DNA of 64,000 nucleotides from Bifidobacterium mizhiense (GTDB lineage Bacteria; Actinomycetota; Actinomycetes; Actinomycetales; Bifidobacteriaceae): the NCBI RefSeq assembly GCF_020884755.1, contig NZ_BPWE01000003.1:186001-250000 (forward strand), given 5' to 3'. A program made the translations under genes and the position numbers. Of this stretch, positions 35,064 to 42,900 are shown in pieces; the stretch's first letter is position 1; each line of letters begins with the position of its first letter. The notes beneath the pieces were generated by a model. It worked only from the letters and a program-made list of their open reading frames with translations. It did not search any database and was not told the origin of the DNA.

Positions 35064-35459
35064 GGGGCTGATCGGTTTCGACGGTGACCTGTTCGTCGCA
35101 GGGAAGCGTGCCGAGAACGCGGGGGTCCGCTCGTTAATGTCCTCCCGCAAACAACAAGTGCTAAATCTAACCGCACTGAGTTCGCTCTCGCTGCCTGAGC
35201 TTCGCGCCAGGATTAACCAGTGAGCAGCTGCTCCGTTCACTCCCCTTCGCCTTCGGGGGGATGCTGAGCGTCATTAAGAAGACTTGCCTGAACTGCCGCG
35301 CCACAGGACGGTTCGGGGACTTTTTCTGCGGCTATGCCCGCCACCGGTTGTCTGCGACACAGGTGGGGGCAGACAGATAGCCACAAAGGCCAGCAGACTA
35401 CGCACGTAGAAGACTGAGGGTGCGGTCACCGGACCGGGGTTCAATTCCCCGCAGCTCCA
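35064..35459 (+). ncRNA. ssrA: tmRNA
   Basis: Rescues stalled ribosomes by trans-translation with SmpB. The 5' end GGGGCTG pairs with 3' CAGCTCC (seven pairs, one G-U) to form the tRNA-like acceptor stem; a T-arm GGTTCAATTCC precedes the 3' end. The resume codon is GCT at 35160, and the tag reads AKSNRTEFALAA before TGA at 35196-35198. The 3' CCA is not encoded (the next bases are CTC). Length about 396 nt. The 3' end borders an AT-rich stretch; tmRNA ends are common integration sites. Confidence 0.96.
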
Positions 35460-35465
35460 CTCGAA

Positions 35466-35496
35466 CAAAGCATTGTTCCATATATGATTTGCTTTG
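35466..35496 (+). terminator. Possible tmRNA terminator
   Basis: Stem CAAAGCA/TGCTTTG with a 17-base loop starting six bases after tmRNA. The tail is only mildly T-rich. Confidence 0.4.
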
Positions 35497-36303
35497 GTTG
35501 CATATTGTAGATTTTCTAAAATTATCTGGGTCTTAGGATAAGTTGGTTTTGGTTAATCTTTCTTAGCATAGAAGCATTTCTTTGGTCCATACCAACACTC
35601 ATATTAAAAAACAATCGCTTCGCTAAACTAAAATATAATACCTTAAACGACAAACCGGCATTATATTTCAAATCTCTATTTTGGCATTTGTGTGTATATA
35701 TTACACGCAAATAAATCCAAGAATCTGGAATATCACTTTACAGTTGGCCAATACCTGCACACAGTTATTCGCGTTTTTGACAAGTCAATATGTTCCACTC
35801 ATCTTTTAAAACAATTCAGTTTCCTCGATAAGAGGTATACATGATACACAGGTTTAAGTCGGCCGAGCTATTTATCAGTAATCAGATTAAACAAGCATAG
35901 AGCAATTAACTACAAGTACACGGTACAAGCCACCTCAAGGTAAGATCCTACTGCTACATATGACTATAATTAATACCAAAATCTATATATCTTTGAATCT
36001 CTATTTATGGCTTTTTGCTTAGCGAACGAGGAAAGCCCGATTTGGACGTCAAAAAGCTACAAATGGATTTCAATAAGGGGATAAGTCCACTTCTGCTTGA
36101 AATGATATCGTAGTTTACAAGTCAAAATTATAAAAGGCTGCTTTTGTTCTTCAGCAGTCTACAGTCAAATATTCACAATCCAGACATCACAGCTTTTAAA
36201 TATTTATAACTTTGTTTAAGTTTACCAATACTGTCTAATGGCCTTCCGTCAATATCGCTACTAAATTAGAACAACTCAACTCATTTATAAGTTACGGAAT
36301 CCG
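35497..36303. other. AT-rich gap with no recognisable gene
   Basis: About 800 bases of clearly lower GC than the flanks. The short open frames here look non-coding. I see no integrase remnant, no tRNA and no direct repeat of the tmRNA 3' end. It may be decayed mobile DNA. Confidence 0.6.
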
Positions 36304-36849
36304 CTAATCGAGAATTATTGGCATATACTGTATACATTCATCATATTTTTGTGCAGTAAACTGCAAATGCCAAACATGATATGTAGGAGAACTTTTATCC
36401 TGTCCTTCATCAGTAAAATCAAAAGCAGAAAACAGCTTAATACTGGCTTTATTTCTTGGATCTATCTGTGTAATCACCTCTGTTCCCCGTCCCTTATACG
36501 TATATGCATCATTCTTTATCCATCGAATGGTGTTATCCAATATACGTGTGCCAACACCCTTACCTTTTACTTTGTAGTTCCTAGCTAGCCAGGATATGGA
36601 GTATATTTTTGAATCTGCTAAATATCCAAACTCCGAGAAAGCATAAATGATATCTTTTCCTGTCTCAGTGAGAATCAATCGCTCAACGGAATTTGACGAC
36701 TTTGCAGATTGAACATTAAGCTCTCGAATATATCTTTGAACATCTAGTTCCCATTCAGGCCTGTTAGTGGGTCCGCAACATATAAACTGGCGCAATGCTG
36801 TCTGGTAGGAAGAATTGCACTCACAACTAGTCAGCATTGCTACACCCAT
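36304..36849 (-). CDS. GNAT-family N-acetyltransferase
   Basis: A 181-aa protein with a GNAT fold: the acetyl-CoA loop is KVKGKGVGTRILDNTIRW and the later strand-helix is RGTEVITQIDPRNKASIKLFSAFDF. The N-terminus is Cys-rich (SCECNSSYQTALRQFICC). It starts four bases after a 50-codon ORF. Codon use is AT-rich, unlike the genome core. Could be a toxin-type acetyltransferase or a small-molecule acetyltransferase; neither can be shown. Confidence 0.75.
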   Translation of the reverse strand: MGVAMLTSCECNSSYQTALRQFICCGPTNRPEWELDVQRYIRELNVQSAKSSNSVERLILTETGKDIIYAFSEFGYLADSKIYSISWLARNYKVKGKGVGTRILDNTIRWIKNDAYTYKGRGTEVITQIDPRNKASIKLFSAFDFTDEGQDKSSPTYHVWHLQFTAQKYDECIQYMPIILD

Positions 36850-36853
36850 AGCT

Positions 36854-37006
36854 TTACCGACTCTTCCTGTTCATCGCAACAGATCGATTCAAAGCCGCAC
36901 GACTAAGAGCCATCCACTTCTCATCAACGGCATCACGAGGCTTTCCATCCTTAGGCGGAACATACGTGGGCACAGGTTTGACCACCACTTTAGTTGCTGT
37001 ACTCAT
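36854..37006 (-). CDS. Small basic protein of 50 residues, upstream partner of GNAT
   Basis: The ATG at 37006 has AGGAGAG upstream. The product starts MSTATKVVVKPVPTYVPP and ends NRSVAMNRKSR; it is rich in Lys, Arg and Pro in its first half and probably helical (DEKWMALSRAALNRSVA) in its second. The stop is four bases from the GNAT start, so the two form one transcript. The arrangement recalls small antitoxin–GNAT toxin pairs, but it does not resemble the ribbon-helix-helix antitoxins known for such toxins. Confidence 0.6.
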   Translation of the reverse strand: MSTATKVVVKPVPTYVPPKDGKPRDAVDEKWMALSRAALNRSVAMNRKSR

Positions 37007-37381
37007 ACCAGCTCTCCTAATCATTCGATGCTTTATAGCCTACCATAAGTGTTCTCAAATTGAGTAAATAAATTTATTTTCTTCCATAGAAAGAAAACCT
37101 GTGTTAATTATAGTCTTATCGACTTGTAAAATAAAATAAATAATTCAGAAACGAGTTAAATGATCTTTGATATCATGAATATCTGATTTCACATAGATTA
37201 AAAAACCAGCTTAAATGATGGTTAAAGCTTAGAGTCACAATAGGCCATTACCTAGACTTAAATTGGCTAATAAATAGAGACCAATCTTCGATGAATTATA
37301 GATGCTTAGATATTACCAGTTGCAGTTAAGTCTAATTATGACTTGAAATTATTAGGAGCTTGAATTCTCGTTGATTGTCGA
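37007..37381. other. AT-rich gap
   Basis: No gene seen. It should hold the promoter of the 50-aa/GNAT pair at its left end, and lies beyond the 3' end of the FtsX-type permease gene at its right end. Confidence 0.6.
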
Positions 37382-38821
37382 TCATTCGCCTATGGCGCCT
37401 TGCAGAATAGCTATGGGCGAGCGTCTCAATGCAGGCCGCGCCGTCAGCATGGTCGCCAGCGACCCGACGACGATGATCGGCAACCCGCAGATAAGGAAAA
37501 ACTGCCAAGGAAAAACTACGGACAGACTGTGTATAAGGGGCCAGTAGACCATAGCTGTGCTCAGTCCGACCAGTCCGGTGCCGCCTGCTGCGATGATAAT
37601 GCCTGTAGTCATCACAATAGTGCCGTCCAATATGGATATAGCAGTCAGCTGCTGCGGGTTTGCGCCTGCAATTGACAGGAGCGCCAGATCGAGGTCACGA
37701 TCCCGAGCGGCGATAGCGAACCCCGCAATCACGCCGACCAAGGCGACCAGCAACGCTGCCCAGAAACCATAGAGCAACTCCAAAGTTCCACCCGCTGTGG
37801 CACTCGGTATTCCCGGCACCTTGTTCATGGCGACGGTACTGGTGCCTCCGGCAGTCAGCAGACCGCCGACCAGAAACATGCAGGCGGTCAACGCTATGAC
37901 CGTTGAGCCGAATGTCGTGTCTTTGCTTCTGACCACAGCCTGTGAACGCGCTATCCGCCAGACGGCAGACGATGACGGCACCAGAGCAGTCCAGAGTTGA
38001 GTGACCCTGCCTATAACCGGCCCACCAGCGCGAGCCAAGGCTATCAGCAGCAAGAGAATGGCGAAAAGCGGTCCACTTCCAACGGCACTTATGACCGCCT
38101 GGACTTGCTTAGAATCCAAGGACCCAGAGCCGCTGTGCGAAAGATAGACAAAGACGGGCAACGGCAACAACAACAAGGCCAGCCCAAGAAAAAGGGATAC
38201 AAGACCACGTCCATGTCGGGGCCGGTCAATCGATTCGCTCTTCTCAGCACGGCGCACCACCCGGACAGGTGTCATCTTTCCCAAATCCCGCAATGTCCGG
38301 ATGGTCGCCAAGACGGCCGTGGCCAATCCCACTGCAAGACCGGTCAGGGCAGACCTGGGAAAACCGCGCCAGGTAAAAGCGAAATGCACCGGTATTCGCA
38401 TTCCAGCGGAATACCAATCCAGGATCCTTCCAGCCAGCGCAGGCGAAAGAGCCACGGCAACAAGGGAGGCCGGCAGAACCAAAATCATCACCTGCAAAAG
38501 CGTAAGCAGCAGGATCTGCTTAGGTGTAGCTCCCAGCAGCGAGAGAAGGGCCAGGCCCTGCCGACGTTGGCGAATTGATGCCTGCAGGGTCTGCTTGGTC
38601 ACCAGGTAGCCGAGCACAATGACCGTGAGGAAGACCAGACTCAGGGCCGAAGCCAAGCTCTTGGCAGGATCCCTGGTCTTGACCGACAGACCCTGGTAGT
38701 AGCTGTTGACGCCCATGCTCACACTCATGGCACAGAGCAGGGTTTGGGTAACCACAAGAACGATAAAGACGCCAGCCCAGATGCCACTATTGGCTTTCAG
38801 GTCACGCAAGGCCCAAGTCAT
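37382..38821 (-). CDS. FtsX-type ABC transporter permease, orphan
   Basis: A 479-aa membrane protein with a hydrophobic helix near residues 13-37, then two FtsX/MacB-like bundles (SALSLVFLTVIVLGYLV... and the C-terminal part around GVIAGFAIAARDRDLDLALLSIAGANPQQL). The motif LLSLLGATPKQ is typical of these permeases. GC content is close to that of the core genome, unlike the DNA on either side. The usual ATPase gene is missing on both sides; the bases before the ATG could encode only a short tail. Confidence 0.8.
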   Translation of the reverse strand: MTWALRDLKANSGIWAGVFIVLVVTQTLLCAMSVSMGVNSYYQGLSVKTRDPAKSLASALSLVFLTVIVLGYLVTKQTLQASIRQRRQGLALLSLLGATPKQILLLTLLQVMILVLPASLVAVALSPALAGRILDWYSAGMRIPVHFAFTWRGFPRSALTGLAVGLATAVLATIRTLRDLGKMTPVRVVRRAEKSESIDRPRHGRGLVSLFLGLALLLLPLPVFVYLSHSGSGSLDSKQVQAVISAVGSGPLFAILLLLIALARAGGPVIGRVTQLWTALVPSSSAVWRIARSQAVVRSKDTTFGSTVIALTACMFLVGGLLTAGGTSTVAMNKVPGIPSATAGGTLELLYGFWAALLVALVGVIAGFAIAARDRDLDLALLSIAGANPQQLTAISILDGTIVMTTGIIIAAGGTGLVGLSTAMVYWPLIHSLSVVFPWQFFLICGLPIIVVGSLATMLTARPALRRSPIAILQGAIGE

Positions 38822-39181
38822 GATTCATTCACCTGCCACATCCTCGTGCGTACACTCGGTTATATCCCTCTATCTATATGAATAGCCGATCGGCGCGGGA
38901 GGAAACATCCGGCAAACCCCTGAAACGACCCTGAATCAACCCTGATTCACCTCTATCATGCCAAACTTGTCGCGATCATATGCCATGTATCGTTTGGGTA
39001 TCGCCTCAATCAAACCATGACCTTTGAAGTGTGGAAATCTAACTGATGCATAATTCAAACATATTGTTTAGTTTGATTAGCATCTTTCGGCTATATCAAC
39101 AAGTACGACAGCACTTAGACAATATGTCCTTTATTTTATCTACATTTAATAAATGGTGAAATTCTATATTAGAATTCAAGT
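38822..39181. other. Gap between divergent permease and membrane-protein genes
   Basis: A 360-base divergent region, increasingly AT-rich to the right. On the minus strand a 14-codon open stretch ending EDVAGE and a stop precedes the permease ATG by three bases; it might be the relic of a lost upstream ATPase gene. No clear promoter elements identified. Confidence 0.45.
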
Positions 39182-40807
39182 ATGTCCTCTATAGTAGATA
39201 AGGTAGACGTCTCTTTAGAAGATGAGCCAGTTCTCTCTCCCATATTCCATCCAGCAGATAGCTGGCATGCTGAAAACTTGACTCATTTTTTAGCAGCCGT
39301 AGCTTACACTGTTCTGTTTTTTGGTGCAGGAATTAGCCTCAGAGTTACTGAATATTCTTCTATCAAAACTCAAGCAAGACAAAATTGGTATAAGCAATCC
39401 ACTTTCTTTCACAGTTTTGTTCTTAATAATACTTATAAAGATCCAGCCAATATGTTGTTGGCATTGTGGTCATTGATCATAGGTGTCATTCTTGTCACGG
39501 CCTTTTTGGACGTAAACACCGCTGAATCTTCAAAAACGGCGAGAACATTCACCGTATTTATCGGTTTCTTATCGTTGGCTATCGACATTGTCACAGGCTA
39601 CGTATCACCTGACATGTTGCACCAGTATGATTTTGGTCTTAGTCTGCTAATGATAATAATCAGCGTTGGCATATCAGCTTTTGCCCTAGCCTATGGCGTA
39701 AAACAAACGATTTCCGCTCGCGAGATACAAGAAAACGAAAGGCTAAGATCAGATCATTCGCATGAATATATTTTATTAGCTGAAGCATCACCAGATAAAG
39801 GACATTCGATAGTAGGCGCAATTCTTCGTTTTCTTGGTGGATTGTTATTCAAGACTGTTCTTGCATTCATAATAACAAGCTTCATAGCATTACTATTTGC
39901 TAAAATACAAAATCATTCAGTTACATATACGCTAACCCGCCTATGGTTGGCGTTTATTGCTGTTGCCTTAGAACTGATCCCCTGTATGCTCGATACCTTC
40001 TTTATGCTTGCAATAGGTGTGGGCGTTCACGTAAACAAAAAGAAGCGAATATGCTATGCACCTCGAAGTATTGGGGAATTGGCTTATCACATATTTACAG
40101 CAGCATATTCCTGGCTCTTATCAATATGGTTTTTTGCCATTGTACTAAATCCAACTACACTGCCTTTTATAGCGATTACATTTTTCATCCCGATATTAAT
40201 CGTCATTTGGTATTTGTTACCTATCTGGAATTCCCTCTTAATTCCTATTCACAAATGGTTTCTTGAAAGATTGATAAAAGACGACCAGCGTAGAATCGAA
40301 CTCATTCACTACCATATATATACAAGTGTTGCTTCAACGTACCTCAGTTCGGAATTATCAGTAGATACACATCGCGAGTATTTGCTGCATACTCTCATAA
40401 CAACAAAGAAAGAAGACGAAAACACGTTATGGCAAGAAATATGTTATCCCGATTCTCGCGACACAAACGAAGTCCCCTTACTTTCTTTATCGACTAAAGA
40501 TCTTCAGGATATTTTAGAAATTAATAAAACCCAACAGACCAACGATATCAATCCAGATAAAACAAAACGTCAACAAAACATCACATGCTTGGTAGATAAA
40601 ATCAACACAAATAATCCCGAGTTCAATTGTTGCGACCAGAATGATTGCAAAATCTATCTATCTGCAATCTTCGATGATCGCCAGTATTTATTAACACCCT
40701 TAAACTCAGAGTCTAAGAAAGATGAAAAACAACAAAAAGTCATTACTCATAATTTTTCCAACTGCAAAGGAAAATGGCAACTGATACTGACGCTGGTAAA
40801 GCGATGA
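39182..40807 (+). CDS. Multi-pass membrane protein of unknown function
   Basis: A 541-aa protein I do not recognise. About eight hydrophobic segments occupy residues 34-350, with a charged loop near 175-208, followed by a roughly 190-residue soluble C-terminal part containing Cys pairs (NCCDQNDC) and many Asn and Lys. No signal peptide, no nucleotide-binding or protease motif seen. Base composition is much more AT-rich than the core genes, which suggests acquisition from elsewhere. It stands alone, with gaps on both sides. Confidence 0.75.
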   Translation: MSSIVDKVDVSLEDEPVLSPIFHPADSWHAENLTHFLAAVAYTVLFFGAGISLRVTEYSSIKTQARQNWYKQSTFFHSFVLNNTYKDPANMLLALWSLIIGVILVTAFLDVNTAESSKTARTFTVFIGFLSLAIDIVTGYVSPDMLHQYDFGLSLLMIIISVGISAFALAYGVKQTISAREIQENERLRSDHSHEYILLAEASPDKGHSIVGAILRFLGGLLFKTVLAFIITSFIALLFAKIQNHSVTYTLTRLWLAFIAVALELIPCMLDTFFMLAIGVGVHVNKKKRICYAPRSIGELAYHIFTAAYSWLLSIWFFAIVLNPTTLPFIAITFFIPILIVIWYLLPIWNSLLIPIHKWFLERLIKDDQRRIELIHYHIYTSVASTYLSSELSVDTHREYLLHTLITTKKEDENTLWQEICYPDSRDTNEVPLLSLSTKDLQDILEINKTQQTNDINPDKTKRQQNITCLVDKINTNNPEFNCCDQNDCKIYLSAIFDDRQYLLTPLNSESKKDEKQQKVITHNFSNCKGKWQLILTLVKR

Positions 40808-41044
40808 AACCAGAACATGCGATGTACCTATGCGTGTACTGTTTACGACTTTGACCGCCAAATCACCTAGGTTGCAGCATTTTCCATTCCTCGTGGACAA
40901 GCAGCAAAGTAATCCCAAATGTGCAGGATCTTTGACGAATTGAATCAGCATTGATCATTTACGGCCTTTGTACCGCCATGAAAATATCTGACTCAACATC
41001 TTACGATCCAACCCGAACTATTCTGATACCCAGAATCTAATGCA

Positions 41045-41101
41045 GGTTCCCGGACGATGGTCAAGTACCCGGACAGCGACAAGACTTGCCGAAAGGGAAC
41101 C
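41045..41101 (+). promoter_or_regulatory. Guanidine-III riboswitch with Shine-Dalgarno-sequestering arm
   Basis: The aptamer spans about 41050-41090. It matches the guanidine-III (ykkC-III) pattern: CCGGACGA at the 5' edge, TACCCGG, then GACAAGAC. The two CCGG elements (41050-41053 and 41069-41072) can form the pseudoknot. A stem CAAGT/ACTTG extended by GG/CC closes the hairpin, with one bulged T. GGTTCCC (41045-41051) is an exact complement of GGGAACC (41095-41101), which directly abuts the exporter ATG and overlaps its ribosome site. Pseudoknot formation would compete with that pairing, a simple translational ON switch for guanidine. Confidence 0.82.
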
Positions 41102-41419
41102 ATGTCCTCGTGGATCGTACTCTTACTCGCTGGCATCTGTGAATCGGTCTGGGCCACCGCCCTGGGCAAGTCTCAGGGTTTTACCAAAATCGTCCCTGAC
41201 ATCGTTTTTATTGTGGGACTGATTCTCAGCATGGTGGGTCTGGCCTTTGCCATGCGCGGCATCCCTACCAGCACGGCCTACGCGGTCTGGGTCGGTATCG
41301 GAGCTGCCTTGACTGTCATATACGCCATGGCTACGGGCTCGGAACCTGTTTCGCTGGCTCGCATTCTGCTCATCATTAACTTGGTTGCCTGCGTGGTCGG
41401 GCTCAAGGTCGTCAATTAA
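41102..41419 (+). CDS. gdx: SMR-family guanidinium exporter (SugE/Gdx type)
   Basis: A 105-aa protein with four membrane helices, the size of SMR dimers. The start at 41102 has AAAGGG just upstream. Glu14 in LLLAGICESVWATALGKSQGF is the family's central proton and substrate carboxylate, and the GKSQGF/ TAYAVWVGIGA segments match the SugE/Gdx branch rather than EmrE-type multidrug pumps. It would expel guanidinium in exchange for protons. The guanidine-III aptamer directly ahead of the gene supports the substrate independently. Confidence 0.9.
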   Translation: MSSWIVLLLAGICESVWATALGKSQGFTKIVPDIVFIVGLILSMVGLAFAMRGIPTSTAYAVWVGIGAALTVIYAMATGSEPVSLARILLIINLVACVVGLKVVN

Positions 41420-41487
41420 AAATAATGCCCCATCAACACAGATATATCCCAACAACAAACAAAATCCAGAGGAAAGAAGTCGCCATC

Positions 41488-42006
41488 ATGACCACAACAA
41501 TACGGCAATGCACATCAGATGATGCCAGGCTGATACGTTCCTTGGGCATGACCACCTTCCGTGACACCTTCGCCGCCGACAACAGCCAAGAGAACATGGA
41601 CGACTACCTCCGGCACTCCTTCTCCCCCGAATTGGTCAAGTCGAAGCTGTCCGAACCTGAATCCGTTTTTCTGCTCGCCAGCGTGGACGGCGTACCCGCA
41701 GCCTACATGCAGCTCAACACCGGGAAGGCCCAAACAGAGCAGTTCGGCGACACATCCATGGAGATCGAGCGGCTATATGTTCTATCGGACTTCAAGCACC
41801 GCGGGTTGGGCACCCTGCTGGTCAATCAAGCCTTCAAACGTGCCAGGACTCAGAATTTGAACAAAATCTGGCTGGGCGTATGGGAACACAATGAGCCCGC
41901 CCAACGTTTCTACCAAGCCATGGGCTTCAAACGGACCGGGGAGCACACCTTCACCTTGGGCGAGGAACTACAGACCGACTGGATCATGACCGCAGCAGTC
42001 AGTTGA
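41488..42006 (+). CDS. GNAT-family N-acetyltransferase
   Basis: A 172-aa enzyme starting at 41488 with AGGAAAG upstream. The acetyl-CoA site is IERLYVLSDFKHRGLGTLLVNQAF and the C-terminal GNAT strand pair is KIWLGVWEHNEPAQRFYQAMGFKRTGEHTF, which resembles the spermidine/PaiA-like and RimI-like groups. It lies 68 bases after the exporter in the same direction and may share its guanidine-controlled transcript. The acceptor is unknown. Confidence 0.88.
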   Translation: MTTTIRQCTSDDARLIRSLGMTTFRDTFAADNSQENMDDYLRHSFSPELVKSKLSEPESVFLLASVDGVPAAYMQLNTGKAQTEQFGDTSMEIERLYVLSDFKHRGLGTLLVNQAFKRARTQNLNKIWLGVWEHNEPAQRFYQAMGFKRTGEHTFTLGEELQTDWIMTAAVS

Positions 42007-42399
42007 AGGATACGTCCGTACAACCAAGCGGAGCCGACAAATCCGGGACAATCCAAGAAAAACCATGACTGACCAGAATCCTCCTATCAGCGGTAAAGCA
42101 GGTAACTCATCATGACATCATCCATGCACGCTGATCAGGACCGTGTCGACGACCAAGCCCGTCGTATTACCTTGATGACACAGGCATATTGGGCTTCGAC
42201 CTGAAGCTAGGCATCGAAAGAGTTCAAGGGACAGCCATCGACTGGACCATTGACAGGAACCAGTCCTGCCATGACTACATTGAAGTGGGCGTCTTTCATG
42301 CCAGTCTTCAAACGGTTCTCCAGCCTGACCTTCACCAGGTGCCGGTCCAGCTTTCCCCTTCGGCACTACAACAACGTCTGAACTCTCTAGACTGGAACC
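42007..42399. other. Gap with a possible degraded ORF
   Basis: A 393-base stretch. An ATG at 42112 opens 30 codons and stops at TGA; a different frame then stays open from 42135 through 42399 with protein-like composition (LDDTGILGFDLKLGIERV, then SCHDYIEVGVFHASLQTV). A frameshift joining the two would give one protein of about 95 residues. I do not recognise it. It could equally be non-coding. Confidence 0.3.
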
Positions 42400-42900
42400 A
42401 TGAGAATCGTCATTCAACGGGTCAGCCGTGCCCGGATCGATGTGGTCGACGAACAGGGGCAGCCGGATCCTGATTTTAAACCCCAAAGCATCGGCACAGG
42501 ACTCTTGCTCCTGGTGGCCGTCCAGGACGGCGACGGCGATGCCCAAGTGGACTATGCCGTCCGCAAGCTGACCCGGATGCGCATCTTTGCCGACGAGGAT
42601 GGCCGGATGAACCGGTCGGTCCTGGACTGCGGCGGTTCCATCCTCTCCATCTCCCAGTTCACACTATATGCTGATCTGCGTCGCGGCAACCGTCCCAGCT
42701 TCATGGCTGCGGGAGAACCCCAACACGCTCAAAGAGTCTGGCAGAATCTTAACCGGGCGCTGGCTGCGACCGGAGTGCCAATTGCCGCTGGACGCTTCGG
42801 TGCCCACATGCGAGTTGATATGGTCAACGATGGACCGGTGACAATCCTGCTGGACACCGACAGGCTGATGAAGCCGGCAGCTCCTACAGCGGCTATTTGA
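42400..42900 (+). CDS. dtd: D-aminoacyl-tRNA deacylase
   Basis: A 166-aa cytoplasmic editing enzyme that frees D-amino acids from mischarged tRNA. The signature motifs SISQFTLYAD (SQFTL) and MVNDGPVTILLD (NxGPVT), which build the active site across the dimer, are present. The start MRIVIQRVSRARIDV is canonical. It overlaps the 3' end of the convergent ftsQ by eight bases. Confidence 0.95.
   Translation: MRIVIQRVSRARIDVVDEQGQPDPDFKPQSIGTGLLLLVAVQDGDGDAQVDYAVRKLTRMRIFADEDGRMNRSVLDCGGSILSISQFTLYADLRRGNRPSFMAAGEPQHAQRVWQNLNRALAATGVPIAAGRFGAHMRVDMVNDGPVTILLDTDRLMKPAAPTAAI

Follow-up and report, generated by a model that had tools for sequence, protein, structure and literature searches.

The window (the whole 64-kb stretch of Bifidobacterium DNA that was analyzed) carries a leader RNA directly before gdx, a gene for a guanidinium exporter, and a second gene follows on the same strand. 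The features of this locus are listed below.

41019-41024 (+): predicted -10 element TATTCT, placed by the TGNTANNNT consensus found upstream of the leaders
41033-41049 (+): hairpin P0, GAATCT-AATGC-AGGTTC (arms 41033-41038 and 41044-41049), with one U-G pair; the upstream stem of the Rfam model
41045-41051 (+): 5' arm of the predicted clamp, GGTTCCC, overlapping the 3' arm of P0 and the first two bases of P1
41050-41090 (+): guanidine-III aptamer core, supported by the Rfam match, covariation, base-triple covariation, and the ligand bases given in PMC5696562
41050-41053/41069-41072 (+): pseudoknot P1, CCGG/CCGG, by sequence
41054-41060 (+): third strand, ACGATGG, by sequence
41062-41066/41084-41088 (+): P2, CAAGT/ACTTG, by sequence
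41091-41096 (+): Shine-Dalgarno (SD) sequence GAAAGG, 5 nt 5' of the ATG at 41102, matched to the presumed 16S tail
41095-41101 (+): 3' arm of the predicted clamp, GGGAACC, consisting of the two Gs that end the SD and of the spacer; the ATG at 41102 follows
41102-41419 (+): gdx, SMR-family guanidinium exporter of 105 aa (PF00893, 78.5 bits)
41488-42006 (+): PaiA-like GNAT N-acetyltransferase, likely co-transcribed with gdx (NCBIfam PaiA, 187 of 250 bits, under the cut-off)

Judged by its sequence, the gdx product is a guanidinium exporter of the Gdx type. No other PF00893 (SMR) gene was found in the 2.09-Mb genome, and the best PDB match of the product is 6wk5 (Gdx-Clo, E 2e-20). In an ungapped alignment to this entry, residues E13, W16, S42, Y59, and W62 of Gdx-Clo (PDB 6WK5/6WK8/6WK9) all recur in the window protein one residue later, as E14, W17, S43, Y60, and W63; W16 is reported to separate Gdx from Qac proteins (PMC7695847). 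The two proteins differ in that the window protein scores 84.4 bits against the NCBIfam SugE equivalog NF008512, under the cut-off of 126, and we consider it a divergent Gdx for this reason. A preliminary description of this DNA had placed the aptamer before a Gdx exporter gene, which agrees with the ATG at 41102 and the Gdx residues found in the sequence. Elsewhere in the window, two AT-rich stretches (35480-37400 and 38850-40950) have a GC content of 0.34-0.45 per 600-base step, compared to 0.53-0.65 in their surroundings. They lie behind the tmRNA gene at 35064-35460 and look acquired. A frame of 541 aa at 39182-40807 had no Pfam or NCBIfam match at E 0.001.

The aptamer was assigned to the guanidine-III class (ykkC-III, RF01763) by a covariance-model search of the window, and on this basis the assignment is certain. 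The whole RF01763 model matched 41030-41093 (+) with 48.9 bits (E 4e-7), well over the gathering score of 36, confirming the class proposed earlier. An Rfam scan of 38900-42900 returned no RNA family besides RF01763 at E ≤ 0.5. The 41-base aptamer of the preliminary description corresponds to 41050-41090 (41 nt), and the motifs said to be shared with known members were located at 41050-41057 (CCGGACGA), 41066-41072 (TACCCGG), and 41078-41085 (GACAAGAC). Its statement that the stem CAAGT/ACTTG is changed yet paired was likewise correct for 41062-41066/41084-41088, in agreement with class-wide covariation of P1 and P2. In the crystal structure of the Thermobifida fusca RNA, guanidine is held by C6, G7, and G17 (PMC5696562); mapped onto the window by sequence, all three are kept as C41055, G41056, and G41065. 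The window RNA is predicted to bind the ligand. As in T. fusca (PDB 5NWQ), the RNA is a 41-nt H-type pseudoknot with a four-pair P1 and the ligand bases, and an SMR exporter behind the riboswitch is an arrangement shared by the window and many members of the class. It differs from 5NWQ in having CAAGU/ACUUG as P2 and a U in the third strand, and its SD lies directly behind the aptamer, whereas the distance in T. fusca is 16 nt (PMC5696562). The window RNA is a clear, well-formed, otherwise ordinary member of the guanidine-III class.

RF01763 matched 18 of the 27 genus genomes, 17 of them over the cut-off, as well as 39 of 189 genomes of the family and 51 of 396 sampled genomes of the phylum; the guanidine-I riboswitch, searched in the same 27 genus genomes, was found in none. 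The RF01763 searches gave 97 distinct places (46 + 52, with that of the window common to both), and 86 leaders were used for comparison. Six loci were omitted whose genes are broken or lack a start (L018 and L020-L024), as were two for which the script found no start (L066 and L080) and three that were judged spurious by eye and had no Gdx match (L099, L104, and L105). For the pair count, 61 of the 86 leaders were selected by the analyst; the 25 left aside comprised near-duplicates, every one of the ten leaders that have CCCG in P1, and others. In this selection, standard pairs occupied 97.3% of 549 P1 and P2 cells, and in 96 cells both partners had changed. Of the five measures of covariation, four were reached by 0 of 500 shuffles, while the fifth, the number of pairs with a double change (5), was reached by 95 of 500. 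Sliding the partners out of register lowered pairing to 20-51%. The third strand also follows its partner: of the 24 rows with a C-G partner pair, 23 have G at position 9, and of the 31 rows with an A-U pair, 27 have U or C there. Five short-core rows (misaligned at this place) and one G-U row of the 61 were set aside.

The 5' end of the transcript was predicted from the same leaders. The extended -10 consensus TGNTANNNT is present upstream in 61 of 86, compared to 3.0 (at most 8) in shuffles; it lies at -30 to -40 in the family, and of the ten P1-CCCG leaders, seven have it at -17 to -20 and one at -39. A consensus promoter scan requiring a -35 element found none at the window leader. The window reads AACTATTCT, with AAC in place of TGC, and the 13 other genus gdx leaders have TGCTA. 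Of the 14 gdx leaders of the genus, that of the window is thus the only one without the TG of the extended -10 (41016-41024), and its promoter may be weaker as a result. Use of the predicted -10 would place the mRNA start at ~41031, right at P0, so transcription probably begins close to this hairpin and the leader would be about 70 nt long rather than the roughly 60 bases first described. A stem of at least five pairs just 5' of the aptamer is found in 57 of 86 leaders but in only 16.5 (at most 25) in shuffles.

Between the aptamer edge and the start codon, the window leader holds a second potential pairing. As first described, GGTTCCC (41045-41051) is the exact complement of GGGAACC (41095-41101), which runs up to the ATG, and the 5' arm of this clamp shares five bases with P0. 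The Cs of the clamp had been said to be needed for the pseudoknot as well; this is true of C41050 and C41051, and no other clamp C lies in P1. Because these two bases belong to both P1 and the clamp, the proposed mutual exclusion of clamp and pseudoknot stands. The clamp had also been called a Shine-Dalgarno clamp. Of the SD GAAAGG it takes in just G41095-G41096, and the rest of its 3' arm is spacer; "start-site clamp" describes it better than "SD clamp". The sequence GGATCACCTCCTTTCT, which we take to be the 16S tail that partners GAAAGG, is present once in the genome.

The clamp of the window alone is weak evidence, with a chance of about 1 in 100. Dinucleotide shuffling of the leader gave a Watson-Crick run of 7 between the arm regions 14 times in 5000 and anywhere in the leader 274 times in 5000; base shuffling of the two arm segments gave one between them 146 times in 20000. 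With sampled positions of the 64-kb window as the positional null, the same geometry with a run of 7 was found at 434 of 42594. Since the single case is unconvincing, support for edge-to-start pairing was sought from the comparison of all 86 leaders. After L049 and L050 (distant start) were removed, the leaders were clustered into 44 representatives and the edge segment of each was paired with its own and with swapped start regions. Segment -8 to +4 scored -10.59 with its own start region and -9.22 (sd 0.37) with swapped ones, and its own pairing was reached by 0 of 5000 swaps in one run and 1 of 5000 in a second. Other sizes of the edge segment gave 0, 0, 1, 22, and 3582 of 5000. The last value is that of the four P1 bases alone, and as these give no signal, the signal sits in the bases just 5' of P1. 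Seven other 12-nt segments were compared; five had no signal, and -34 to -22 and +4 to +16 had a weak one (92 and 58 of 3000).

The size of this signal varied with the subset and the null used. It was weaker when swaps were made within GC quartiles (51/5000), when the window cluster (L001) and the short-core leaders were left out (33/5000), in the family of the window alone (18/5000, 13 clusters), and outside that family (340/5000, 31 clusters). Own pairs placed in the top tenth among their swaps in only 11 of 44 cases. A partition-function model had the edge paired with a quarter or more of the 14 bases preceding the start in 14 of 44 clusters; by the same measure, the third strand/P2 5' region did so in 11 of 44 and each of two other regions in 4 of 44. 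A resemblance of the P0 5' arm to the SD was also considered as a mimic, had weak support (87 of 5000 swaps, 33 clusters), and was rejected.

These numbers bear on the possibility that the clamp is due to chance, or is a by-product of a C-rich P1 edge meeting any purine-rich SD. Such an explanation would account for the ~1% of sampled window positions that match, for swapped leaders already reaching -9.2, and for a mean z against own-composition shuffles of only -0.66 over the 44 clusters, with 18 of 44 below -1. It does not account for own pairs exceeding swaps at the edge position or for the z of -2.78 of the window leader, and we regard it as rather improbable. Across the leaders, pairing of the edge with the start region is thus a genuine tendency without being a rule.

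Within the genus, two predicted ways of covering the start region were seen. The full clamp, with all seven pairs and an energy of -14.2, is present in 7 of 14 genus gdx leaders (L001, L004, L005, L006, L008, L011, and L013), one of the seven pairs being a wobble in L008. L009 has seven clamp pairs with two wobbles (-8.6), L010 keeps five clamp pairs, and L014 falls clearly into neither mode. The leaders L003, L007, and L012 share the aptamer core and gdx with the window and differ from it in having no edge clamp; their minimum free energy (MFE) fold puts the 3' strand of P2 on the SD region, in a hairpin of -9.0 in L003 and L007 and -5.1 in L012. This hairpin can also form in L002 (-6.3) and L009 (-7.4), where the MFE likewise lacks the edge clamp. 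The preliminary description of the leader was right on clamp and aptamer and missed both P0 (41033-41049) and this P2-based mode of the relatives. In each mode the partner strand belongs to the aptamer, so the ligand would open either one. It is possible, though we offer it tentatively, that bee-gut bifidobacteria carry a strand-exchange device at the mRNA 5' end, in which the 3' arm of P0 and the edge of P1 choose between P0, the pseudoknot, and the start site, and in which the role of covering the SD region has passed within the genus between the P1 5' edge and the P2 3' strand, around a fixed aptamer.

The P2-based mode also raises the question of whether the OFF state of the window, with a true aptamer, instead forms locally, by folding of the P2 3' strand (41083-41090) onto the SD region. 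In the five relatives L002, L003, L007, L009, and L012, such a hairpin has an energy of -5.1 to -9.0; it beats the edge duplex in L003 and L007, and a class-wide swap test of this pairing gave 82 of 5000. The window value is only -2.5, compared to -14.2 for its edge duplex, and we regard a P2-based OFF state there as unlikely.

Folding of the window leader up to the ATG gave an MFE of -20.1 kcal/mol, made of the clamp and P2, whereas the fold with P0 and P2 is worth -9.0 with the pseudoknot not counted. The clamp stays in the MFE to 41128, and a different fold is the MFE from 41134 on. Locking P1 and P2 in a 104-nt model raised the openness of 41101-41103 from about 0.12 to 0.55, while that of the SD bases 41091-41094 fell (0.40-0.80, compared to 0.81-0.98 unlocked), which counts against the ON switch proposed below. 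Judged by nested energies, the ON fold is much less stable than the clamp, and any switching would therefore have to occur kinetically, as the RNA is transcribed. Transcription attenuation was considered and rejected, with no terminator-like site in 40700-42500 (1.8 expected by chance).

Taken together, we propose that the guanidine-III riboswitch is a translational ON switch for gdx, a reading to which we give a probability of roughly three in four. The start of transcription and the direction and size of the switch are predictions. Without guanidine, strand 41045-41051 would quit P0 and the loosely formed pseudoknot to pair with 41095-41101. The clamp would then enclose the P2 hairpin and mask the SD end and the spacer, together with part of the AUG when the fold is somewhat longer, turning gdx off. 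With guanidine, P1, P2, and the third strand would be locked by the ligand, keeping C41050 and C41051 in P1; P0 could hold 41045-41049, and the open ribosome site would allow gdx to be made and guanidinium to be exported. P0 and the pseudoknot strands emerge ahead of the start region, which could allow guanidine to lock the ON fold first; without guanidine, the emerging start region would displace P0 and P1.

A freeing of the SD by this route would match the published proposal for the class. Weinberg 2010 described ykkC-III before emrE and speB (PMC2864571), and Huang 2017 proposed that the ribosome site is uncovered on ligand binding, a step described in the same structure paper as less well established (PMC5696562). 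Passages of PMC7736828 and PMC7266159 have nothing further on it. A 2025 review states that guanidine frees the SD and stabilizes the mRNA against RNase E (PMC12186494); within the literature covered, it was the only result of a search on guanidine-III with Shine-Dalgarno and pseudoknot. A search on guanidine riboswitches in Bifidobacterium gave no title on this RNA. The RNase E effect, for which the review cites Richards and Belasco 2021 (PMC12186494), suggests that mRNA stability could be the main output, with a ligand-locked pseudoknot near the 5' end blocking RNase E scanning and the clamp incidental. The predicted 5' end at P0 fits this idea, which is compatible with an ON switch but does not predict the matched complementarity of 5' edge and start region; as the main effect we consider it unlikely.

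A tblastn match to the GNAT behind gdx is present at 12 of 14 genus gdx riboswitch loci, and at nine of them it is a single piece of nearly full length. A guanidine-III riboswitch lies directly before a related GNAT in another genus of the family (L026), and genome G096 has the order riboswitch-GNAT-riboswitch-gdx (L025 and L075). As the gene adjoins gdx and is directly riboswitch-controlled in relatives, the PaiA-like GNAT probably belongs to the guanidine regulon. GNATs under guanidine-IV control have been published (PMC9788692); here the class is guanidine-III.

Other guanidine-III loci were noted in the survey. A second type in the genus (L015, L016, L017, and L019, at about 1500-2260) has a core two bases shorter, with GACGAC for GACAAGAC. 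It precedes a CBU_0592 membrane domain fused to ACT_7 (L015, L016, and L019 scanned, L017 by eye; the C-terminus of the L016 protein diverges). A clamp is predicted at the same place, CCTTCC/GGAAGG in L016, L017, and L019 and TTCTTCC/GGAAGGA in L015. The short core was considered as a new ligand class and rejected, since 33 of 56 GACGACG matches in named genomes have a Gdx-like frame directly behind them (tblastn). Reading frames are shortened at L020, L021, and L023. The extra copies L018, L022, and L024 keep aptamer and clamp, have no TGNTANNNT at the usual place, and carry ATC for the ATG of gdx; they look like decaying duplicates. At L043, L061, and L087 the RNA stands before a different membrane protein, Sm_multidrug_ex (PF06695) in L087, which those of L043 and L061 resemble by eye.

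The window leader offers a compact, well-defined test case of ~70 nt for the step by which guanidine-III riboswitches act on the ribosome site. Since close relatives combine the same aptamer with a different predicted clamp, the mechanism could be compared in a nearly constant background. The locus ties guanidine export, and probably the GNAT enzyme, to a Bifidobacterium that is probably bee-associated.
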